A DNA stretch of 64,000 nucleotides from Trueperaceae bacterium (lineage in GTDB: Bacteria > Deinococcota > Deinococci > Deinococcales > Trueperaceae): NCBI GenBank assembly GCA_013697735.1, contig JACCWH010000152.1, forward strand, positions 1 through 64,000. Reading direction: 5' to 3'. The translations under genes were made by a program, and so were the position numbers. Under the pieces are notes generated by a model. That model was not told the origin of the DNA, did not search any database, and saw nothing but the letters and a program-made list of their open reading frames with translations. This document shows, piece by piece, positions 51,301 through 64,000 of this stretch (within the stretch, counting starts at the first letter, position 1; each line of letters opens with the position of its first letter).

Positions 51301-53382
51301 CTACTCCACCGGATCGAGATCGATCACGAGCCGTTCCGATTCGCCGGACGTCACCTCGACCACCGCAGACCCCGCCTGGAGCGGGAGGACCGTATCCGGA
51401 GCCTCGACCGTCGCCCATACCGCATACGTCCCCGGCGCGAGATCGTCGAAGGCGAAGGGCCAATAGCCGCGCGTGAGCGGACCGCTCGACACGCTGGCGG
51501 GGGTGTCGGAGTCGGAATCGACGTCGGCGCAGTCGGCTTCGGCGCAGGCGAAGATCGAAACGCTCACCGTGGGGGCACCCGCCCAGGCGCTCGCGGGCTC
51601 ACCGCCGAGCGCGAGGTTGGCATTCACGAGGCCGGCGCCGCAGTCCTCGAGGCTCGGTCGATCGCACCCCTCGAACGTGAGGGGCGTTGCCGTGCTCGTG
51701 AGGCGGAACCGAACGTCCTCGGGGTCGAGCGTCGGGTCGGCCGCGAGGAGCAGCGCTACGAGGCCACTCACGTGCGGCGCCGCCATCGACGTACCCTGCG
51801 CCCACAGCCAACCACTCTCCTCGCCGGCGCCGGTGGTACTGAGCACCCCCGCGGGAAAGACGGCCAGGATGTTTTCCGACACGTACCCAAAGTCGAAGTT
51901 CCCTCCCGGAGCGAAGACATCGACGTCGGCTCCGAAGTTCGAGTAGTAGGCGCGTTCATCGTAGGGGCCCGTCGCGCCGACGGTGATCACGCCGGGGCAG
52001 TTGCCGGGGGAGAACATCGCCGTGTCCTGCGAGGCGTTCCCCGCCGAGGCGACGAGCACCACGCCTCCGCTCACCAGCGCCTGCGTCACGTTGGCCATCT
52101 CGACCGGGCAGGGCCCGACGCGCCCACCGAGGCTCATGTTGATCACGTCCGCTGGGTGCTCGTTCGGTGGCGGGTCGACGCCCTCGGGGTAGTCGTAGCC
52201 GGCGACCTCGAGTCCGCTCGCCCAGACCATGCCCGCTAGGAGGTCGTCGATGGTGCCCGAGCCGGTCTCGTCGAGGAAGCGGATCGGGACGATACCGGCT
52301 CCGTGGCTCACGCCGGCTACGAACGGATCGTTCGCGAGGCGCATCGCGATGGTGCCGGACACGTGCGTGCCGTGGCTGAACTCCACACCCACCTCGGTGG
52401 CATCGTCGTCGAGGTCGACGAAGTCGTAGCCGGGGAGCCAGATTCCCTCGAGATCGACGTGTGCCTGGTAGCCGGTGTCGATCACGGCGACCGTGACGGC
52501 GTTCGACGTGCCCGTCTCCACGGACCAGGCGGCGTGCAGATCGATGCTCGGGAAGTGCCACTGGAGTTCGAACGCCGGTGGAACCGTTTGATGCGCCGAA
52601 AAGATCCAGTTGGGCATCGCCGTGACGACGTCGGGTCGCGCTTCGATACGGCGCGCGAGTGCGATCGTCTCCTCGACGCTCAGCGGCGTCGCGGCGACCC
52701 ACTTCTCGAGCCGACCGACCTGCACCACATCCGTCGGTCGGACGAAATCGACACCGTCGACGCGAAGCCTGTGCGCAGCGCCCTCTCGCGCGGCACCGAC
52801 CGCCGCCGTGCTCGCAAGGCGCACGAGTACCTCGCCCGGGACCGCACGCATCTCGTCGTGCTCGAGAGGTACGTCGTCGCCCGGGACCATGCTCACGAAG
52901 CGGGAGCTCGCGAGCGTAGGCGTCACGAAGCCTGGATCGCTCGGTGTCGGGATCAGCAGCGATCGCACCTCCCCACGCAGGGCGCCAGGAAGCACCCCGA
53001 GCACCTCCAGCGCCACCGCCTCACTCTCGACGCTCGCCACGCCGTCGTCGGCCACCACGGTGAGTGAGTAGGTATCGGCCGGTACCGTCGCGTCGACCTC
53101 GATGGTCATCGTCGCCACGGCGTCGGTCGTGGACACGCTCTCGGCGGTGATCCCACCCTCGTCGGCCACCAACGACAGCTCGACGGCAGCGCCGAGCACC
53201 TCGCCGCGTACGACCGTGACTTGGATCTCGACGCTGTCGCCGGAGTAGACCGGGTCGGGGGGGAAAACGACCACCGTCGCCTCTTGGGGCGCCGGCGTGG
53301 TGCGGCACGCTGCGAGCGCGATCAGTACGAACGCCATGATCGCGCGCCGCGCGTGCGAGACGGATGTGGTTCGGCTTATCAT
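51301..53382 (-). CDS. Lipoprotein subtilisin-like (S8) serine protease
   Basis: A 693-aa exported protease. ATG 53382 is chosen because GGAGG lies 9 nt upstream. ATG 53391 would touch it. The lipobox LAAC puts Cys26 at the mature end. An Ig-like segment (about 32-130) and a prodomain (about 180-262, ending VTAMPNWIFSA) precede the S8 domain, which has Asp302 (AVIDTGY), His337 (SHGTHVSGT) and Ser532 (GTSMAAPHVSG). A small C-terminal beta domain follows. It shares layout with the protease at 30885-33143. Its promoter may be the TAGCAT box roughly 90 nt upstream. Confidence 0.9.
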   Translation of the reverse strand: MISRTTSVSHARRAIMAFVLIALAACRTTPAPQEATVVVFPPDPVYSGDSVEIQVTVVRGEVLGAAVELSLVADEGGITAESVSTTDAVATMTIEVDATVPADTYSLTVVADDGVASVESEAVALEVLGVLPGALRGEVRSLLIPTPSDPGFVTPTLASSRFVSMVPGDDVPLEHDEMRAVPGEVLVRLASTAAVGAAREGAAHRLRVDGVDFVRPTDVVQVGRLEKWVAATPLSVEETIALARRIEARPDVVTAMPNWIFSAHQTVPPAFELQWHFPSIDLHAAWSVETGTSNAVTVAVIDTGYQAHVDLEGIWLPGYDFVDLDDDATEVGVEFSHGTHVSGTIAMRLANDPFVAGVSHGAGIVPIRFLDETGSGTIDDLLAGMVWASGLEVAGYDYPEGVDPPPNEHPADVINMSLGGRVGPCPVEMANVTQALVSGGVVLVASAGNASQDTAMFSPGNCPGVITVGATGPYDERAYYSNFGADVDVFAPGGNFDFGYVSENILAVFPAGVLSTTGAGEESGWLWAQGTSMAAPHVSGLVALLLAADPTLDPEDVRFRLTSTATPLTFEGCDRPSLEDCGAGLVNANLALGGEPASAWAGAPTVSVSIFACAEADCADVDSDSDTPASVSSGPLTRGYWPFAFDDLAPGTYAVWATVEAPDTVLPLQAGSAVVEVTSGESERLVIDLDPVE

Positions 53383-53566
53383 GATGGGCATCCTCCCCCG
53401 ATCGGCGCACCTGCGCGACGATCGGTCGCACCGAGCGTGAGACTCCGGTACACGAGCGCGCCGGTCGGACCGTGGCACGATGCCCAGATGCTAGCAGATG
53501 GTCCGCGTCGCTTCTGCGACGCGTGCTCGCGTCACGGCTGCGCCGTGGATGAGAGGATGACCAAGT

Positions 53567-55335: not shown

Positions 55336-56682
55336 TCAGGGCGCGGTCGGGTCGTGCACGCCGAGCGCGGCGAAGGCCGCGTGCCGGTAGGGCGAGGCGA
55401 CAGGCCCTCGCAGGACCGGGTCGTCGGTGCGCTGCATCCAGGCGATGAGCTCGGCCTTGAGCTCTGTCGCGACGTGGGCGAGCGCCGGATCGTCGATGCG
55501 GTTGCGGCGCTCACCGGGATCTTCGAGGAGGTCGTAGAGCTCGAGCGGTGGGCGCTCCATCACGATTTCGTCGATCATCTGTGGCGTGATCGGGCTGCGG
55601 AGCGTGTCGCCGGGGACGTTCATGATGTCGACCTCGAGGTTGGCGATCAGCTTGTAGCGCGCACTCCGCACCGCGCGCTGCGGCTCGTACGCCGTGTGGA
55701 AGGTCTTCTCGGCGAACACCATCTCGTTGTGGGCCGTCGTCTCGCCCTGTAGCAGCGGCCAGAGGCTTCGGCCGTGCAGCGAGGCGGGGGCTTCGATGCC
55801 GAGCCCCTCGAGCACGGTGGGGACGAGATCGACGTGGCTGACCAGGTCGGGGAAGCGCCGACCGCCGCCGAGATCGCGAGCGCTCCAACGCATCACGAGT
55901 GCGACGGCGAGACCCGGGTCGTACATGGTGGCTTTCGCCCGCGGCATCGCGAGCCCGTGGTCGGTGGTGAACACGACCCAGGTGTTCGCCGCGTCGTCGC
56001 GCTCGGCGATGGCGGCGAGGATGCGACCGAAGCCGTCGTCCATGGACCGGATCGCACCCTGGACCTCTGCCATCTCCTGACGCGCCTCGGGCGTGTCGGG
56101 GAGGTAGGGGGGGATCTCGACGCCACGATCGGAGAAGGGCGGTTGGTCGTGGAAGCGTCCTGTTCGGTCGCGGTGTGGTTCGAGGAAGCCGACGTTGAGA
56201 AAGAACGGGCTCGCGGCCGCACGCACGGCGTCGACGGCCGCCCGGGCGGTGGTGGCGGCGTCAGTGTGGGAGGCCTCGTGGCTGTCGAAGCCGAGCGCTC
56301 GGATGTGCTCGGGCGTGTCGCGGGTGACGTGCTGCACGCCGACGTGCCGAGTCTCCCAGCCGGCGTCGGAGAGGTATCGAGCGAGGTGGCGGGCGTCGTC
56401 GTGGAGCCGCCAGTCGAACGGCGCGTGCGCGAGCCCGAGCATGCCGACGTCGTGCGCGTGGCGACCCGTGTAGAGGGCTGCACGGCTCGGTGAGCACTGG
56501 GGTGCGGTGGCGTACGCCTGCTCGAACAGCAGGCCGTCGGCGGCGAAGGCGTCGACGGCGTCCGATGGCACGGTGGGATGCCCGTAGCAGCCGAGGTGCC
56601 TTCCGAGATCGTGACAATCGACGATTACCAGGTTGGGACGCGTGGCGGGGGTGCCGGGAGCGGGCGTAGGGGGCACTTTCAT
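55336..56682 (-). CDS. Type I sulfatase (formylglycine-dependent)
   Basis: An alkaline-phosphatase-superfamily sulfatase of 448 aa. The N terminus NLVIVDCHDLGRHLGCYG supplies metal ligands. The activation motif is CSPSR with Cys63, Pro65 and Arg67, so the cysteine must be converted to formylglycine. TTDHG and the C-terminal ELYDLLEDPGE are typical. There is no signal peptide, which suggests a cytoplasmic enzyme acting on imported substrate. It is the last gene of the leftward ABC operon, 10 nt after the permease. A formylglycine-generating enzyme lies at the other end of the locus. Confidence 0.93.
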   Translation of the reverse strand: MKVPPTPAPGTPATRPNLVIVDCHDLGRHLGCYGHPTVPSDAVDAFAADGLLFEQAYATAPQCSPSRAALYTGRHAHDVGMLGLAHAPFDWRLHDDARHLARYLSDAGWETRHVGVQHVTRDTPEHIRALGFDSHEASHTDAATTARAAVDAVRAAASPFFLNVGFLEPHRDRTGRFHDQPPFSDRGVEIPPYLPDTPEARQEMAEVQGAIRSMDDGFGRILAAIAERDDAANTWVVFTTDHGLAMPRAKATMYDPGLAVALVMRWSARDLGGGRRFPDLVSHVDLVPTVLEGLGIEAPASLHGRSLWPLLQGETTAHNEMVFAEKTFHTAYEPQRAVRSARYKLIANLEVDIMNVPGDTLRSPITPQMIDEIVMERPPLELYDLLEDPGERRNRIDDPALAHVATELKAELIAWMQRTDDPVLRGPVASPYRHAAFAALGVHDPTAP

Positions 56683-56692
56683 GCGGGTCGGA

Positions 56693-57541
56693 TCATCCTT
56701 TCACCGAGCCGGCCGTCAAGCCCGCTGCGATGCGTTGCTGGAAGAGTAGGACGAGGATCACCAGCGGCAGCGTGACGATCATCGCCGCGGCCATGATCTC
56801 GGCGATCGGCTCTTGTTGCTCGACCACGCCGGTGAACTGCGCGATCGCGACCGGAACGGTCTGGGCGTTCGGGTTCGTGATCGTGAACGAGAGGGCGAAG
56901 AGGTACTCGTTCCAGGAGACGATGAAGGTGAGGAGGCCGGTGGTCACGAGGGCCGGAACCGTGAGTGGGAGGAGGATGCGCCCGAAGATCTGTGCGGTGG
57001 TGGCGCCGTCGACGACGGCCGCCTCCTCGATCTCGCGCGGGAGTCCGCGGAAGAACGTCGTAAGGACCCAGGCCGCGAACGGCAGCGTGAAGAGCGGGTA
57101 GCTGAAGATGAGCGCGGCCTGGGTGCCGTAGATGCCGAGGTCCCGCACGTTCTCGTAGAGCCCCGAGAGCACCGAAATCTGCGGGAACATCGTCATGGCG
57201 AGCACCGCGTAGAGCATTGCGCCCTTGCCGCGAAAACGCAGGCGCCCGAGCGCGTAGGCGGCGAAAGAGCCGGCCGTGAGTGCCACGAACACCCCGCCAC
57301 CCGACACGAGGACCGAGTTCGCCAGCGAGCGCATGAACGCGCCGCTCGACAGCACGTTCACGTAGTGGCGGACGGTCGGCTCGCTCGGCAGCAGCATCGC
57401 CGGACCGAAGAGCTCGTTCTCGCTCTTGAGCGACGTGGAAATCGCCCACACGAACGGCAGCAGCGCATAGGCGGCGATGAGTGCGACGACGAGGTAGAAG
57501 GGGGTACGGCGGAGCGCATGGCGCCAGGTTGGGCGCGTCAT
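56693..57541 (-). CDS. Carbohydrate ABC permease (MalG-like, CUT1)
   Basis: A 282-aa six-helix permease of the sugar CUT1 type. It has the N-terminal YLVVALIAAYALLPFVWAISTSLKSENEL pattern. The EAA loop EIEEAAVVDGATTAQIFGRILLPLTVPALVTTGLL is complete, and SWNEYLFALSF is typical for MalG relatives. Its ATG overlaps the stop of the other permease (ATGA). It lies between that permease and the sulfatase. Confidence 0.94.
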   Translation of the reverse strand: MTRPTWRHALRRTPFYLVVALIAAYALLPFVWAISTSLKSENELFGPAMLLPSEPTVRHYVNVLSSGAFMRSLANSVLVSGGGVFVALTAGSFAAYALGRLRFRGKGAMLYAVLAMTMFPQISVLSGLYENVRDLGIYGTQAALIFSYPLFTLPFAAWVLTTFFRGLPREIEEAAVVDGATTAQIFGRILLPLTVPALVTTGLLTFIVSWNEYLFALSFTITNPNAQTVPVAIAQFTGVVEQQEPIAEIMAAAMIVTLPLVILVLLFQQRIAAGLTAGSVKG

Positions 57542-59070
57542 GTGCGGTTCACCCCCAGGAAGCGGACGTAGAGGATCGCGAAGCCGAAGATGAGGAGGAA
57601 GATCAACACGCCGATGGCCGAGGCGTACCCCGCCTCCTGGTTGTTGATGAGGACCTCGAATGTATAGGTCGACACGCTGTGCTCCGCGCGCCCGAAGAGG
57701 ACGTTGAAGAGGTCGAACACGCGCAGCGCGTCGAGGGTACGGAAGATCAGTGCGACCGCGATCGCGGGCTTGAGGAGCGGCAGGGTGATCGATACGAACT
57801 CGCGTGCCCGGCTGGCGCCGTCCACGCGTGCGGATTCGTAGAGCTCCTTGGGGATCACCTGGAGCCCGGCGAGGAGCAGCAGCGCCATGAACGGCGAGGT
57901 CTTCCAGACGTCGATCATGATCGCGGACGGGAGCTGGAGCGCGGCGGTGGTGAGCCACGCCTGGGGGGATTCGATGAGGCCGGTCATCATCCCGACACGG
58001 TTCACGATTCCGGCGCTGGTGTCCTTGAGCATGAGCTCCCATAGCCGCGCAGACACTACGGTCGGGATCGCCCAAGGAACGAGCATGACGGCGCGCATGG
58101 CGCCGCGACCGCGGAACTCCGAGTGCACCGTCAGAGCGATGAAGAGCCCGAGCAGTAGCTCGAGCGTCACCGAGGCGCTCGCGAACATGAGCGTGACCCA
58201 GATGGCGCGCATCCACGTCCGGTCGAGCGCTCCGACGCTGATGGCGCGATCGGGTGCGGTCACGAGCGGCAGGTCCCAGTGCCAGGCAGTGCGGTAGCCA
58301 TCGAGCAGCGTCTCGCGTGGGATGGACTCCCAGCGCACGGCGCCGTTCGCGGAGCGCGCGCAGGAACCGTCATCGGCGGTGCGACAGGCGACCTCGTCGA
58401 GGCGCAGGGTGAGGAGGGTGCGGTAGTGGGTGAGGCCGACGAAGGAGGGCACGTCGTCGGAGGCGAAGCGTTTGTCGGTGAGGCTGGTGATCACCGTGGC
58501 CTCGAGTGGGCGTGCGGCGACGACGAGCAGGATGACGAGCGCGGGCACGAGGAGGTTCCAGGCGGTGCGCGCCTCGCGCGCGACGAGCGGTTCGTGCGCG
58601 AGTCCGGGAACCTGGGCAGCGCGGGCGAGGGCGGTACGGAGCGCCAGTGCGGCGAGGACCGCGAGGGCGGGCCCGAGGGTGCCGTCTGCGAGCAAGGGAG
58701 CGCCCTGTGTGAGACGGAGGACGGTCATGACGAGGGCGAAGATCGCGAGCCAGGTGACGCCGTCGTGCGCTGTGCGCGTCGCGCCGACGTCGCGCCGTGC
58801 GACGCCCATGCCGAGTGTGATCGCGGCTAGGCCGAGAGAAGTGACGAGCAGCGGCATCAGTACGCCGAAAGCGTCTAGAACGGCGATCACCAGCGACGGC
58901 CGACCGGCGCCGAGGGTGGCGTCGAGGGCACTACGGACGCCGCTATCCTGCGTGATCTCGAGCGCCAGTGAGCCGATGGTCACGATCCCGAGGAGGATCA
59001 GCAGCGCGCCGAGGAGCGTCGTGCCGGGACCGACGGATGACGTGGGGCGGGCGGAGATCGGGGTCGCCAT
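57538..59070 (-). CDS. Carbohydrate ABC permease (MalF-like) with enlarged N terminus
   Basis: A 510-aa permease, almost twice the usual CUT1 length. Four extra hydrophobic segments (about 20-160) precede the canonical part, which starts near AWNLLVPALVILLVV. A large periplasmic loop of about 95 aa with a cysteine pair (CRTADDGSC) follows. The EAA loop is intact (ELYESARVDGASRAREFVSITLPLLKPAIAVAL). GAGGTG precedes ATG 59070. The long N terminus recalls MalF of enteric bacteria. It pairs with the MalG-like gene. Confidence 0.9.
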   Translation of the reverse strand: MATPISARPTSSVGPGTTLLGALLILLGIVTIGSLALEITQDSGVRSALDATLGAGRPSLVIAVLDAFGVLMPLLVTSLGLAAITLGMGVARRDVGATRTAHDGVTWLAIFALVMTVLRLTQGAPLLADGTLGPALAVLAALALRTALARAAQVPGLAHEPLVAREARTAWNLLVPALVILLVVAARPLEATVITSLTDKRFASDDVPSFVGLTHYRTLLTLRLDEVACRTADDGSCARSANGAVRWESIPRETLLDGYRTAWHWDLPLVTAPDRAISVGALDRTWMRAIWVTLMFASASVTLELLLGLFIALTVHSEFRGRGAMRAVMLVPWAIPTVVSARLWELMLKDTSAGIVNRVGMMTGLIESPQAWLTTAALQLPSAIMIDVWKTSPFMALLLLAGLQVIPKELYESARVDGASRAREFVSITLPLLKPAIAVALIFRTLDALRVFDLFNVLFGRAEHSVSTYTFEVLINNQEAGYASAIGVLIFLLIFGFAILYVRFLGVNRT

Positions 59071-59084
59071 GGTGGCACCTCGGA

Positions 59085-59122
59085 GTTGGCTGGAGGGCGC
59101 GCGAGGGCGCCCGCCAGCCAAC
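59085..59122 (-). terminator. Intra-operon hairpin after the sugar-binding protein gene
   Basis: GTTGGCTGG (59085-59093) pairs with CCAGCCAAC (59114-59122), extended inside by GGGCGC/GCGCCC. The stem lies between the stop of the binding protein (59128) and the permease ATG (59070). It is placed like the hairpin in the peptide operon and likely limits read-through into the permeases. Confidence 0.65.
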
Positions 59123-59127
59123 CGGGA

Positions 59128-60420
59128 TCAGTTCCCGAGCAGGGACTCGAGGTCGAGTTCGAGGAGCGTCAAGGCGGTCTCGGCGTCCTCGCCACCCGTG
59201 AGGATGCTGTGGACGGCCGTCGAGTAGAGCGTCGAGACGCGGTTGTAGCGCGTCCCCGTCACCGTCGACGGGCGCGGCGTTGCGCCCATGAATACGCTGT
59301 CGAGGCCAGCGAAGAACGGGACCGCCTCGATCACGTCCGCGTCTTGGTAGAGGGCCGCGATCGTCGGGTTGATGGAGGAGCGGATCGCGCGGCGCTTCTG
59401 CTCATCGTACGACGCGAAGTACTTGGCGAACGCCACCGCGGCGTCGACGTTGGCGCTGTAGCGGTTCACGCCGATGCTCCAGCCGCCCATGGCGGCGGCC
59501 GAGGTGCCGGAGGCGCCGGCCGGCAGCGCCGCGACGTCGAATACGTCGCCGATCGCTTCGCTGTCGAAGGAGATGCTGTATGCGTAGGGCCAGTTTCGCA
59601 TGAAAGCGGCGTTGCCGGCGTGCCAGACACCGCGTGCGTCGTCCTCGACGTAGCCGACGACTCCGGGTGGGCTGATCGTGCCTACCCAGCCGGCGGCGCG
59701 CTCGAAGGCGCGGATCGTCGCGTCGTTGGCGACCTCGACGTCACCGGCGGGGCTGACGATGGAGCCTCCGCCCTCGGAGACCTGCCACTCGAGGGCGTTG
59801 GTGGTCAGTCCCTCGTAGTTGTTGCCCTGCCAGACGAATCCCCAGAAGTCGGCGTTGCCCTCGGCACGTTCGCCTTCCTGAATGGTACGGGCCATGCCCT
59901 CGAGCTCGTCCCAGGTGGCGGGCGGGCCGTCGAAGCCGTAGCGCTCGAGGAGATCGGTGCGGTAGTACAGCATCCCGGCGCCGAGGCGGAAGGCGATGGC
60001 CGCCATCTTGTCGCCGATGATGTTGTTCTGGATGAACCCAGGGAAGTGTGCGGCGAGTTCTTCGTCGCTGAAGTAGGGCATCAGGTCGACGAGGTTCTCG
60101 GCGAGGATGCCGGGCCAGATCACGTCGACGCGCATGACGTCGATGTCGCCACTTTGGCCCTCGAGCATCGTGAGGTAGTTGGCAAGCAGGTCCGACGCGC
60201 TGGCCGGACCGGAGACGATGGTGACCGTGATGTGCGGGCAGGCCTCGTTGAATGCGGCGACGGTCTCGCGTTCGATCTCGGCGGCGTTGCCGACGGGGTC
60301 GCCCATGAAGGTGATCGTGGCGGGCGCGTCGGTGACGCAATCGATGGTGGCGCCTTGGGCGTGCGCGAGCGTGGCGAGCGTGAAGGCGAGGGCGAGGAGG
60401 ATTCGTCGGACGTTTCGCAT
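59128..60420 (-). CDS. Sugar-type ABC substrate-binding protein (CUT1)
   Basis: A 430-aa exported binding protein of the maltose/trehalose type. A Sec signal peptide (MRNVRRILLALAFTLATLAHA) has no lipobox. Family features are TVAAFNEACPHITVTIVSGPAS, IDVMRVDVIWPGIL, YYRTDLLERYGFDGPPATWDELE, GNNYEGLTTNALEW and GGWSIGVNRYS. GAGGA sits 6 nt before the ATG. It is the second gene of the leftward operon. The presence of a sulfatase suggests a sulfated glycan fragment or sulfated polyol as ligand. Confidence 0.93.
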   Translation of the reverse strand: MRNVRRILLALAFTLATLAHAQGATIDCVTDAPATITFMGDPVGNAAEIERETVAAFNEACPHITVTIVSGPASASDLLANYLTMLEGQSGDIDVMRVDVIWPGILAENLVDLMPYFSDEELAAHFPGFIQNNIIGDKMAAIAFRLGAGMLYYRTDLLERYGFDGPPATWDELEGMARTIQEGERAEGNADFWGFVWQGNNYEGLTTNALEWQVSEGGGSIVSPAGDVEVANDATIRAFERAAGWVGTISPPGVVGYVEDDARGVWHAGNAAFMRNWPYAYSISFDSEAIGDVFDVAALPAGASGTSAAAMGGWSIGVNRYSANVDAAVAFAKYFASYDEQKRRAIRSSINPTIAALYQDADVIEAVPFFAGLDSVFMGATPRPSTVTGTRYNRVSTLYSTAVHSILTGGEDAETALTLLELDLESLLGN

Positions 60421-60516
60421 GGTGGGTCCTCAGGGGGTGCGAGATGCGCGGAGGCGCAGGGGTGGGTGGAGGAAGGGGGCGTGGGTGGCGTGTGTCGGGG
60501 TGGCTGGGGGCCTGCT
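60421..60516 (-). other. C-rich, G-poor intergenic leader (G-rich on plus strand)
   Basis: The 96-nt gap between the PHP gene and the binding-protein gene is strongly skewed. The RNA sense strand is C-rich and G-poor, as in rut sites used by Rho. The plus strand has runs of three to five G close to, but not clearly meeting, quadruplex rules. Confidence 0.4.
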
Positions 60517-62040
60517 TCACCTCCTCGCGGGATCGCGCGGTTCGACCCAGATGGGCGAGCTCCACGCCATGTGGTCGTTGCGTTGTCGGACGCGGGCCCG
60601 GTAGAGGTCGGGCCCACCCGATCCGGTCGGGCGGTGGGTGAAGTCGAGCCGCAGGGCGTACTCGGCTTCGGGGACGGCGCGGTGGAAGCAGATCGCCGGG
60701 GAGACGAAGCCGCCGAGGTGGTGGGTGCGCGCTCCCTCGTGCAGGTCGCGCAGAGGGATGTGAAGCGTGCGGCCGTTCACCACCGCTTCGAGCACGGTCT
60801 GGTCGTCGGCGTCGATCTCGAGGCAGATGCCCTCCATGGCGGGGAGCGCCGAGAGGGCGTTGGGCCGGGTCACGGTTGTGAAGCGAACGCTGCTCTCGTC
60901 CGGATGCTCGAGGGTGTGCGGCGCGTGCCGGGTGCCCTCGGGGGGAGCTTCGTGGGGGTTGGGGCCGCGGAAACGCGCCTCGACACCGATCAAGTCGCCC
61001 CGTCGGACGCGGATCGTCACGTCCCACGGGGTTGCCTCGGTCGCCTCGCCCCAGCCGACCTCGACGTGCACCTTGACCGGGCCGGGCGCGTGATCGCCCT
61101 GGAAGACGCTGACGCGGTGGACGACGCGCTCGTCGTGCAGGATCTCGACCCAGTCGAGGGCGCCGCCGCCGCGCACCTCCACCTCGATCCGGCGCGCGTC
61201 GGTGGCAGGCGCGACACCGCCCATGAGCGTGCCGTCGAGCGCGAATGCGAGGTCGATGCGGTCGCCGGTGAGGGCGTAGGTGCGGCGCGATGCGATGGCG
61301 TCCCAGAGGGCGTCGCGGTCGAGCGAGCGCATCCATGCCCCCATGCGTCCGAATCCGTAGGAGCCGGGGACGGCGTTGTGGTGGTCCGTGGAGCCGACGA
61401 CACCGAAGCGCAATCCTTGGGACCAGGCGTAGCCGGCGGTGCCGTGCTCGTGGCGGGGGCCCATCGCGTGCAAATAGGGGACTGCTCCGTCGGAGCGTTC
61501 GGAGGAGCCATGGAACGAGACGGTCTCGACCACGGGCGAGAGCTCGGGGTCGAACGCCGACCAATCGATACCGCGCAGCCCTTGGCGGTAGGCGACGTGG
61601 TGCGGGATCAGGAAGGTGTCGCCGGCGACCTCGCGCAGGGCGGCGCGGAGCGCAGGGAGGTCGGGTGCGTCGAAGATGTGGGCCCCGCGGGTAGCGCGGA
61701 AATAGATGCAGTGATCGCCGTATGCCATGGAGTGCCATTCGAAGCTCGGCAGCGTCACGAAGGTGCCGCTTTCGTCGGCCGCATCGGTCAGCGCCAAGTA
61801 GTCGGCCCAACCAGCGCGTGCGCGCTCGAAGCCGCGACGATGGTAGTCCACGAGGTAGGCGAGATCGGGATCGTCGGTGGGCACGTCGGGCCATGCTCCG
61901 TGGACGGTGAGGCTGACGAAGTCGAGTTGCAGGCGCGCGTTGGCCATGGCTTCGTCCGGCGTCCCCCGCCCGTACGACAGGTTGCAGTGATTGTGGAGGT
62001 CGCCGTACCGTGCGCGTAGGTCCTCGTATCCGGGGATCAT
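60517..62040 (-). CDS. CehA/McbA-like PHP-domain metallohydrolase
   Basis: A 507-aa protein with an N-terminal PHP-type metal-binding domain. Blocks are YGDLHNHCNLSYGRGTP, VSLTVHGAWPD, FEWHSMAYGDHCIYF, LIPHHVAY and VGSTDHHNAVPGS, giving a full set of His and Asp ligands. The C-terminal 200 residues are beta-rich and may bind substrate. CehA and McbA relatives hydrolyse carbamates or phosphate esters, and many sit in carbohydrate loci. ATG 62040 begins the conserved part. The first gene of the sulfatase operon, it is driven by the promoter at 62129-62155. Confidence 0.8.
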   Translation of the reverse strand: MIPGYEDLRARYGDLHNHCNLSYGRGTPDEAMANARLQLDFVSLTVHGAWPDVPTDDPDLAYLVDYHRRGFERARAGWADYLALTDAADESGTFVTLPSFEWHSMAYGDHCIYFRATRGAHIFDAPDLPALRAALREVAGDTFLIPHHVAYRQGLRGIDWSAFDPELSPVVETVSFHGSSERSDGAVPYLHAMGPRHEHGTAGYAWSQGLRFGVVGSTDHHNAVPGSYGFGRMGAWMRSLDRDALWDAIASRRTYALTGDRIDLAFALDGTLMGGVAPATDARRIEVEVRGGGALDWVEILHDERVVHRVSVFQGDHAPGPVKVHVEVGWGEATEATPWDVTIRVRRGDLIGVEARFRGPNPHEAPPEGTRHAPHTLEHPDESSVRFTTVTRPNALSALPAMEGICLEIDADDQTVLEAVVNGRTLHIPLRDLHEGARTHHLGGFVSPAICFHRAVPEAEYALRLDFTHRPTGSGGPDLYRARVRQRNDHMAWSSPIWVEPRDPARR

Positions 62041-62128
62041 GATGACGGGCCCTCCCAGGCCGCGAACGGATTGCTGAGCAGATGCCGGAGCGCACGAGGG
62101 GCGCACGCGGAATAAGTGATGCTCTTTT

Positions 62129-62155
62129 GTATTACACTTTCGAAAAGGTTGTCAA
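62129..62155 (-). promoter_or_regulatory. Leftward promoter of the sulfatase/ABC operon with palindromic operator
   Basis: On the minus strand a perfect TTGACA (62150-62155) is followed after 15 nt by TAATAC (62129-62134), or after 17 nt by ATACAA. Between them lies a near-palindrome, CTTTCGAAAAG (62137-62147), in the most AT-rich patch of the region. The ROK repressor gene starts about 30 nt away on the other strand. This is a likely ROK operator covering both promoters. Confidence 0.6.
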
Positions 62156-62183
62156 GCCTCCATCCCCCGCCTCCGGTATCGTG

Positions 62184-63395
62184 ATGCGCTCGTCCCTGAA
62201 CGACCAATCCGCCATGGACACCCCCCGCGCGATCGTCACCCACCTCCTCACCCAACCGCTGTCGTTGGCCGGCCTCGGGTCGGCGACCGGGAGTAGCCTC
62301 CCGACGCTGCGGCGCGCGATCCGTGACCTGCAGGAGGCGCGTTGGGTGTCGATCGTCGGCCGCGAGGTCGACACCGGCGGGCGACCCGCCAACCTCTTCG
62401 GCGTCGATGCCGACGCCATCGCGCTCATCGGCGTTCACGTCGAGCACCCCGGCATGCGGCTCGTGGCCACCGACCTGACCGGCGCCGTGCTCGACGAGCG
62501 GGAGCTCCCGGGGGACGGCATCCTCGAGCTCGATACCGTCGATCGCGCGATCGGCTCGTATCTGGAGCACGTCCGCGCCCGCTTCCCGGGGCGGCGCGTC
62601 CTCGGTCTCGCGCTCGCCAGCCCCGGCTACGTCGACCCGCTCACCGGCACCGTGATCGCCATCGGGCGCGTGCCGACGTGGAACAACCTGCCCATGGGCG
62701 AGCGGCTCCGCGAGGCGACCGGCCTGCGCGTGAGCATCGTCAACGACGTGGACGCGATGGCCGCCGCCGAGTTCGGCGGCAGGGCCGATCCGCGCACCTA
62801 CGCCTACCTCGCGGTAGGGGAGGGCGTGAAGTTCAGCCTCTTCCTCCACGGGAAGCCGTACGTGGGACCCTTCGGCAATGCGGGGCTCGTGAATCTGCGC
62901 CTCCTGGCCGCCGCGGGCGGCGACGTCGACGCCGCGGACGTGCTGACCATGTTCGGGCTCGTCGATACCTTCCTCCGGCGCTCGGCGTCGCGGCGTCCGC
63001 CTGGCGCCGACGCACACGCGCGCGTCGCCGACGCGCCCGACGCCCGAGCACGCTTCCTGCAGGTTCTCGCGCTCGCCGAGGACGGTGACCCCGTCGCCGC
63101 GGAGCTCGTCGGGTGGATGATCGACGTCCTGGGTGTACAGATCGCGAGCTTCGTTCACCTCATTCAGCCCGAGCTGCTCGTGATCGGGGGCGCCCTGGCC
63201 GGCGGGCCCGAGCGGGTTCTCGACGATGTGGAAGCCTCGTTGCGCCGCCACCTCCCCACCCTTCTCGACAACAACCTCATCGTGAGACGCGCTCGAGTGG
63301 TCAGCGCCAGCGCGGCGGCGATCGGAGCGACGCGCGTCTTCCTCCACCGGTTCCTCGCCCAGGATGGGCCCCCGATCACGAGCGTGATGGGATGA
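62184..63395 (+). CDS. ROK-family transcriptional regulator
   Basis: A regulator of about 403 aa with an N-terminal winged helix ([22 protein letters not shown]) and a ROK sugar-kinase-like domain ([35 protein letters not shown]). The cysteine-rich zinc motif usual in ROK proteins is absent after YVGPFGNAG, so ligand control may differ. The start is 62184 or 62214. A longer reading from 62082 would overlap the leftward promoter. It probably represses the divergent operon. Its stop overlaps the ATG of the formylglycine-generating enzyme. Confidence 0.85.
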
Positions 63396-64000
63396 CAATC
63401 GACCGCAGCCAAGATCTTGAGAACCGGCCGCCTGAGGTCGGGAGCGTGCGCAATGTGCCGTGCTGCGGCCCGGGCTCGCGCGCAGGCGACGCCGTCGCGC
63501 GGCTCCTCGTGCAGCAAAGCGCGTCGACGAGAACAACGGCCGGACCGGTCGGCGCGCCGCACGCGGTGATCGACCTGCCGGGCGGCACGTTCCGGATGGG
63601 CACCGACGCGCCGACGTTCCCGCAGGACCGCGAGGGGCCGGTCAGGAGTGTGCACGTCGAAGGCTTCTCCATCGACGCCTACGCCGTGACCAATGCGCGC
63701 TTCGCCGCGTTCGTCGACGGCACTTCGTACGTGACCGAAGCCGAGCGCTTCGGCTGGTCGTTCGTGTTCTACCGCTTCCTGCCGCCCGAGCTCTCTCACG
63801 CGCGGCCGGTGCCGGGGGTTCCGTGGTGGCGAGCGGTACTCGGCGCGACGTGGTGCGCACCCGAGGGACCGGGATCCGACCTGGCAGGCCGCGCCGATCA
63901 TCCGGTCGTGCACGTGTCGTGGCGTGATGCCCGCGCCTTCGCCACCTGGGCGGGCGGTCGTCTCGCGCGGGAAGCGGAGTGGGAGTACGCTGCGCGCGGC
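63392..64000 (+). CDS. Formylglycine-generating enzyme (sulfatase activator), partial
   Basis: The 5' part (203 codons) of an SUMF1/EgtB-fold protein that runs off the window. ATG 63392 overlaps the ROK stop (ATGA). The N terminus carries a Cys-rich CCGPGSR patch common in bacterial FGEs. FGE blocks follow: [75 protein letters not shown]. The catalytic cysteines near the C terminus lie outside. It would oxidise Cys63 of the sulfatase in this locus to formylglycine. Confidence 0.9.

Follow-up and report, generated by a model that had tools for sequence, protein, structure and literature searches.

What compound does this locus import, and which of its enzymes would act on it? The stretch of DNA analyzed here, which we call the window, comprises bases 1-64000 of one contig (C96) of a draft genome of 3.5 Mb from a bacterium related to Deinococcus. 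A reading made from the sequence alone had proposed that its right-hand end is a self-contained locus for the import and breakdown of a sulfated compound, consisting of a leftward operon and a rightward ROK-FGE pair. Both transcription units are indeed present: all seven genes are borne out by ORF calls and by Pfam and NCBIfam matches, and they lie as follows, together with one intergenic element.

55336-56682, minus strand: S1-type sulfatase, nearest to the sulfamidase SGSH and to S1_8; active-site Cys63 in CSPSR
56693-57541, minus strand: CUT1 permease of the MalG type (Pfam/NCBIfam)
57538-59070, minus strand: CUT1 permease of the MalF type with a long N-terminal extension (Pfam/NCBIfam)
59128-60420, minus strand: sugar-binding protein (SBP) of the Thermus alpha-glycoside-binding family; signal peptide by inspection
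60517-62040, minus strand: PHP metallohydrolase, predicted N-sulfatase; homologue of the protein at the BT4655 position
62124-62157, unstranded: promoter/operator-like element between ROK and PHP; CTTTTGTATTACACTTTCGAAAAG, with TGTCAAG a few bases on
62214-63395, plus strand: ROK-family regulator; start most likely at 62214, not 62082
63392-64405, plus strand: FGE, cut by the window edge at 64000; Cys pair in SYLCHASYC

The leftward operon reads PHP-SBP-MalF-MalG-sulfatase and the rightward one ROK-FGE, with overlaps of 4 bp between the ROK stop and the FGE start and between the MalF stop and the MalG start. We prefer the later ROK start because the element occupies 62124-62157 and because homologues begin at this later position. 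The locus is not, however, self-contained. Extending the sequence to the right, as the sequence-only reading had advised, shows that FGE is followed in the same direction by a Gfo/Idh/MocA oxidoreductase and then a DUF1349 protein, so that its operon continues outside the window. Furthermore, an ABC ATPase gene is missing from the locus; elsewhere in the genome (on C63) there is a gene for a UgpC-type ATPase, 76% identical to one that lies beside a sister locus. By inspection, neither the sulfatase nor the PHP protein has a signal peptide, which supports the earlier proposal that import comes first and desulfation follows in the cytoplasm. The same sequence of events is known from Pseudomonas AtsA/AtsRBC and the choline sulfatase BetC, which differ from the window in their transporters, sulfatase subfamilies and substrates. 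We hold the operon, the promoter-like element, the cytoplasmic site and the presence of an activator with high confidence.

Read on the minus strand, the element contains CTTGACA as a -35 box, downstream of which the sequence is AT-rich; in some relatives there is also an imperfect inverted repeat. It is kept in the ROK-PHP gap of about a dozen relatives, and a search allowing up to two mismatches finds a single site in the 3.5-Mb genome. The position of the ROK gene suggests that its product controls the locus, in line with the role first given to it, and the locus is probably a catabolic unit under ROK control.

We turn next to the two hydrolases. In both sequence and fold, the best match of the sulfatase is human sulfamidase (SGSH), followed by an S1_8A lambda-carrageenan sulfatase. 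SGSH and the S1_8 N-sulfamidase Phep_2826 of Pedobacter (Flavobacterium) heparinus represent the closest sulfatase branch, the sequence comparison being made via SGSH; the identity is only about 29%, and the window protein is cytoplasmic. The formylglycine site CSPSR (pattern CxPxR) and the residues D25, R67, H118, H170, D241 and K250, as metal and sulfate ligands, are invariant in orthologues. Judged from sequence and model, the enzyme would be S1_8/SGSH-like and could take either an N- or an O-linked sulfate.

Our chief new result concerns the PHP protein. A full-length homologue (36% over 513 columns, E 7e-107) occupies the BT4655 position in a heparin PUL of Bacteroides. The Bacteroides finegoldii record that contains this homologue reads SusC, SusD, DUF4995, HepC, sulfatase, PHP, ROK, MFS, DUF4962, and the sulfatase beside PHP is nearly the same protein as 5G2V (1164 bits), which we take to be the structure of BT4656. 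Since this order matches that described for BT4660 to BT4652 (PMC9067506), the PHP gene stands at the BT4655 position; BT4655, whose genetics were reportedly described in a PNAS study of 2017, is thus identified here by gene order and not by its own sequence. De-N-sulfation of N-sulfoglucosamine (GlcNS) has been assigned to BT4655, a deletion mutant of which leaves GlcNS in the medium, and the enzyme is described as uncharacterised and as absent from SulfAtlas (PMC10154612). It is not predicted to depend on formylglycine (PMC11980591).

The AlphaFold model of the window PHP protein is confident (pLDDT 92.9) and has a PHP fold. No PDB entry matches it by sequence, and by fold only 3E38, itself a PHP protein, is relevant; this best match superposes poorly over the full length (TM 0.30 on query). 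A metal-ligand pattern of HxH, H, E, H, H and D-x-H is conserved across the PHP homologues. HxH, E, H and D-x-H are common to the window and Bacteroides proteins, with H176, D218 and others invariant, and H220 is replaced by Q in the Bacteroides protein, which forms a long, distant branch and is periplasmic by its N-terminus. The earlier suggestion that the PHP protein is the cleaving enzyme of the pathway holds as to its being an enzyme, with the amendment that it is probably a metal-dependent N-sulfatase of the BT4655 family and not a glycosidase.

The neighbourhoods of PHP homologues in other bacteria bear on this assignment. S1 sulfatases of different subfamilies lie at most 8 kb from PHP in three groups of Trueperaceae and in Bacteroides, and also in a record labelled Subdoligranulum, in Spirochaeta, in Verrucomicrobia and in Alphaproteobacteria. 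For comparison, the window genome has six sulfatase-family matches in 3.5 Mb, or about 0.03 per random 20 kb. Loci from Chloroflexota, Poribacteria and haloarchaea have no sulfatase within reach of PHP. In Salipiger the order is Gfo-PHP-SBP-permeases-ATPase-SIS-PfkB-sulfatase, and the sulfatase is 40% identical to human SGSH. In Nitratireductor, where the sulfatase is absent and PHP is kept, two Gfo genes, a SIS gene and a glucokinase gene overlap by 4 bp and PHP comes next; the product of the SIS gene resembles NagB-II (5e-81), though below the equivalog cut-off. The candidate N-sulfatase, a kinase and a deaminase-like gene are thus present there as a set, and the same deaminase-like and kinase genes stand on the divergent arm of the PHP locus in Bosea (L039). 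Once the N-sulfate is gone, glucosamine would be expected to be phosphorylated and deaminated.

Among 39 Trueperaceae genomes, PHP orthologues (at least 50% identity) occur in 11, sulfatase orthologues (at least 47%) in 12, and both in 10; the exceptions (G004, G007 and G030) are drafts of 79-85% completeness. Co-conservation, which had been put forward as a check, is found for PHP, importer and sulfatase, but not for FGE, which is unlinked in some genomes and missing from others. Other Trueperaceae have a divergent ROK and then PHP-SBP-MalF-MalG-sulfatase-PfkB-GH4, and one genome (G034) has GH4, PfkB and FGE all together. Because PfkB and GH4 directly follow the sulfatase in these sister operons, the relatives probably import a glycoside, and the earlier argument about the substrate, which started from the lack of a glycoside hydrolase, is not supported. 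That lack is peculiar to the window genome, where no orthologue of GH4 or PfkB was found anywhere (best matches about 33% and 39%, respectively). The GH4 metal motif was captured in one sequence only. A MAG (L016) has PHP-SBP-MalF-MalG-PfkB-GH4 without the sulfatase, and therefore we regard the sulfatase as the optional part of the system and PHP as the constant part.

We lean modestly towards a small N-sulfated amino sugar as the substrate, most likely GlcNS or a glycoside containing it, desulfated in the cytoplasm by PHP and the S1_8-like sulfatase. The SBP and the two CUT1 permeases, powered by the UgpC-type ATPase encoded elsewhere, would import the sugar with its sulfate still on. In the cytoplasm PHP would remove the N-sulfate, and the sulfatase, once activated by FGE, would remove another sulfate, either N- or O-linked. 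In most relatives GH4 would then deal with the glycosidic bond that is left; that the downstream Gfo/Idh/MocA protein takes the place of GH4 in the window genome is our speculation. The B. thetaiotaomicron heparin/HS PUL that includes BT4655 likewise combines a PHP homologue, an S1 sulfatase, catabolism of a sulfated sugar and a need for sulfatase maturation. It relies, however, on SusC/D, lyases, periplasmic enzymes and an S1_11 sulfatase, whereas the window has an ABC importer, cytoplasmic enzymes, no lyase and an S1_8-like sulfatase.

Several points weigh against a GlcNS-type substrate. If both hydrolases of the operon were N-sulfatases, one would be superfluous, an objection that falls away if one of them takes an O-sulfate. 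Many PHP homologues have no sulfatase nearby. The window locus contains no glucosamine kinase or GlcN-6-P deaminase; a clear NagB-II was not found in the window genome, nor does any Trueperaceae protein match above the profile cut-off, a profile that scores in all control genomes. The family of the SBP is known for neutral alpha-glycosides. Finally, BT4655 has no published biochemistry and is placed by gene order, and the Bacteroides protein is both distant and periplasmic.

An alternative to GlcNS is an O-sulfated alpha-glycoside, such as the osmolyte 2-sulfotrehalose or an algal oligosaccharide, for which the S1 sulfatase would be the sole desulfating enzyme, GH4 or Gfo would cleave the glycoside, and PHP would carry out some other hydrolysis. 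The SBP belongs with alpha-glycoside binders (6J9W, E 3e-109; SmoF, E 1e-50), GH4 is present in the sister operons, and S1_8 includes the lambda-carrageenan O-sulfatases, all as this alternative would have it. The window SBP departs from these relatives at two positions of the ligand region, and the locus has no sulfonate pathway. At the two positions that distinguish the Thermus constructs 6JAI and 6JAR, Arg and Asp, the window SBP has L and G; we take these positions to be the ones altered in the Thermus binding-site mutants, and with both replaced the ligand is probably something other than plain trehalose or maltose. Moreover, an O-sulfated substrate does not account for L016, which keeps PHP without the sulfatase, for the operon of NagB-II-like, glucokinase and PHP genes, or for the heparin PUL. 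We consider it a doubtful alternative. Sulfotrehalose in particular was kept as a rival only, both on account of the SBP residues and because no catabolic locus for it appeared among the titles and abstracts that a paper search listed.

Rather less probable is that PHP acts as a phosphoesterase, or as a CehA/McbA-type carbamate or ester hydrolase, on a side group of the sugar, in which case its association with sulfatases would only reflect richly decorated sugars. Members of the PHP superfamily are mostly phosphoesterases, and 3E38 is named a PHP-like phosphoesterase. The CehA/McbA carbamate hydrolases (DUF3604), against which a comparison had been recommended, share the superfamily and metal ligands with the window protein, and the NCBIfam model NF038032 matches it at 65.9 bits. 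This score is below the cut-off of 80, however, on which ground we rejected the carbamate assignment. The gene lies among sugar genes without genes for aromatic carbamates, and BT4655 is the more informative relative. The BT4655 mutant phenotype, which is specific to GlcNS, argues against both activities. Finally, we give very little probability to a locus for phosphate esters in which the sulfatase-family protein would hydrolyse phosphonate monoesters or phosphodiesters. PehA and PMH are only among its weaker matches and are outranked by the SGSH_C domain and the SGSH-like fold, no genes for phosphonate or phosphate uptake adjoin it, and the importer belongs to the CUT1 class for sugars.

Returning to the N-sulfatase assignment of PHP, we regard it as an even question whether the protein is one of a broad and so far overlooked class of sulfamidases that depend on a metal and need no formylglycine, with members in Deinococcota, Bacteroidota, Alphaproteobacteria, Spirochaetota, Verrucomicrobiota and others. 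Publications have up to now called BT4655 a ‘novel sulfatase family’. In the open-access literature we found no paper naming a PHP-type sulfamidase, none on DUF3604 together with a sulfatase and none on Trueperaceae together with a sulfatase. If such a class exists, the BT4655 family would acquire a PHP fold and a likely chemistry, and the removal of N-sulfate in gut Bacteroides could be tested directly through a soluble, cytoplasmic homologue. The family would also extend to free-living bacteria of several phyla, with an intracellular route for N-sulfated amino sugars based on an ABC importer.

The maturation of the sulfatase can be followed across the Trueperaceae as well. The FGE domain of the window protein (PF03781) scores 244 bits, and its catalytic Cys pair lies in SYLCHASYC. 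Eleven sulfatase-bearing Trueperaceae genomes were tested. A full FGE (>200 bits) without an anSME occurs in six of them; the other five carry an anSME, in one case a fragment at a contig end, and lack a full FGE. None has both. These eleven genomes do not represent eleven independent events, because they come from about five genera. The pattern supports maturation of the window-type sulfatase via formylglycine. The role of FGE as its activator, proposed from the outset, is strengthened because anSME takes the place of FGE in genomes that lack it. The exchange clearly illustrates how, in nature, one conserved sulfatase can be served by two unrelated activators; in one genome (G028) the anSME gene directly follows sulfatase-PfkB-GH4.

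Each of the 11 sulfatase-bearing Trueperaceae genomes that we tested for sulfatase activators encodes either FGE or anSME, and never both together. The difference is seen even between congeners, namely the genome that carries the window (G000) and another member of the family, G030. An oxygen-dependent and an oxygen-independent activator have apparently been swapped inside this single bacterial family. The G000 assembly contains only one full FGE, that of the locus, and no anSME, while it encodes at least five sulfatases. The FGE of the locus may therefore serve the entire genome.

The congener G030 also carries a sulfatase cluster, whose sulfatase (about 40%) and sugar-binding protein, SBP (49%), are related to, but distinct from, those of the window:

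L113 1-4455 (G030, contig C20): compact ROK / SBP-sulfatase-permease cluster

The window genome itself encodes a second, divergent homologue (35%) of the PHP protein:

G000, contig C27, 13359-14876 (L103 9275-10861): second PHP homologue

Its neighbours are the glycolate-oxidase-like genes GlcD and GlcF, and there is no sulfatase nearby. At loci L018, L031, L032, L034-L037, L039 and L043, which come from Alphaproteobacteria and one Chloroflexota MAG, the PHP genes have as neighbours two Gfo/Idh/MocA genes and an ABC transporter of the NMT1/TauA type, and sugar transporters are present there as well.

The heparin/HS PUL with a PHP homologue (L044) lies on NZ_OY725908.1, a 105-kb record titled as a Bacteroides finegoldii plasmid, which may be a wrongly labelled piece of chromosome.

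To the left of the locus, at 51301-53478, lies a subtilisin-like secreted protease, whose catalytic motifs were identified by eye.
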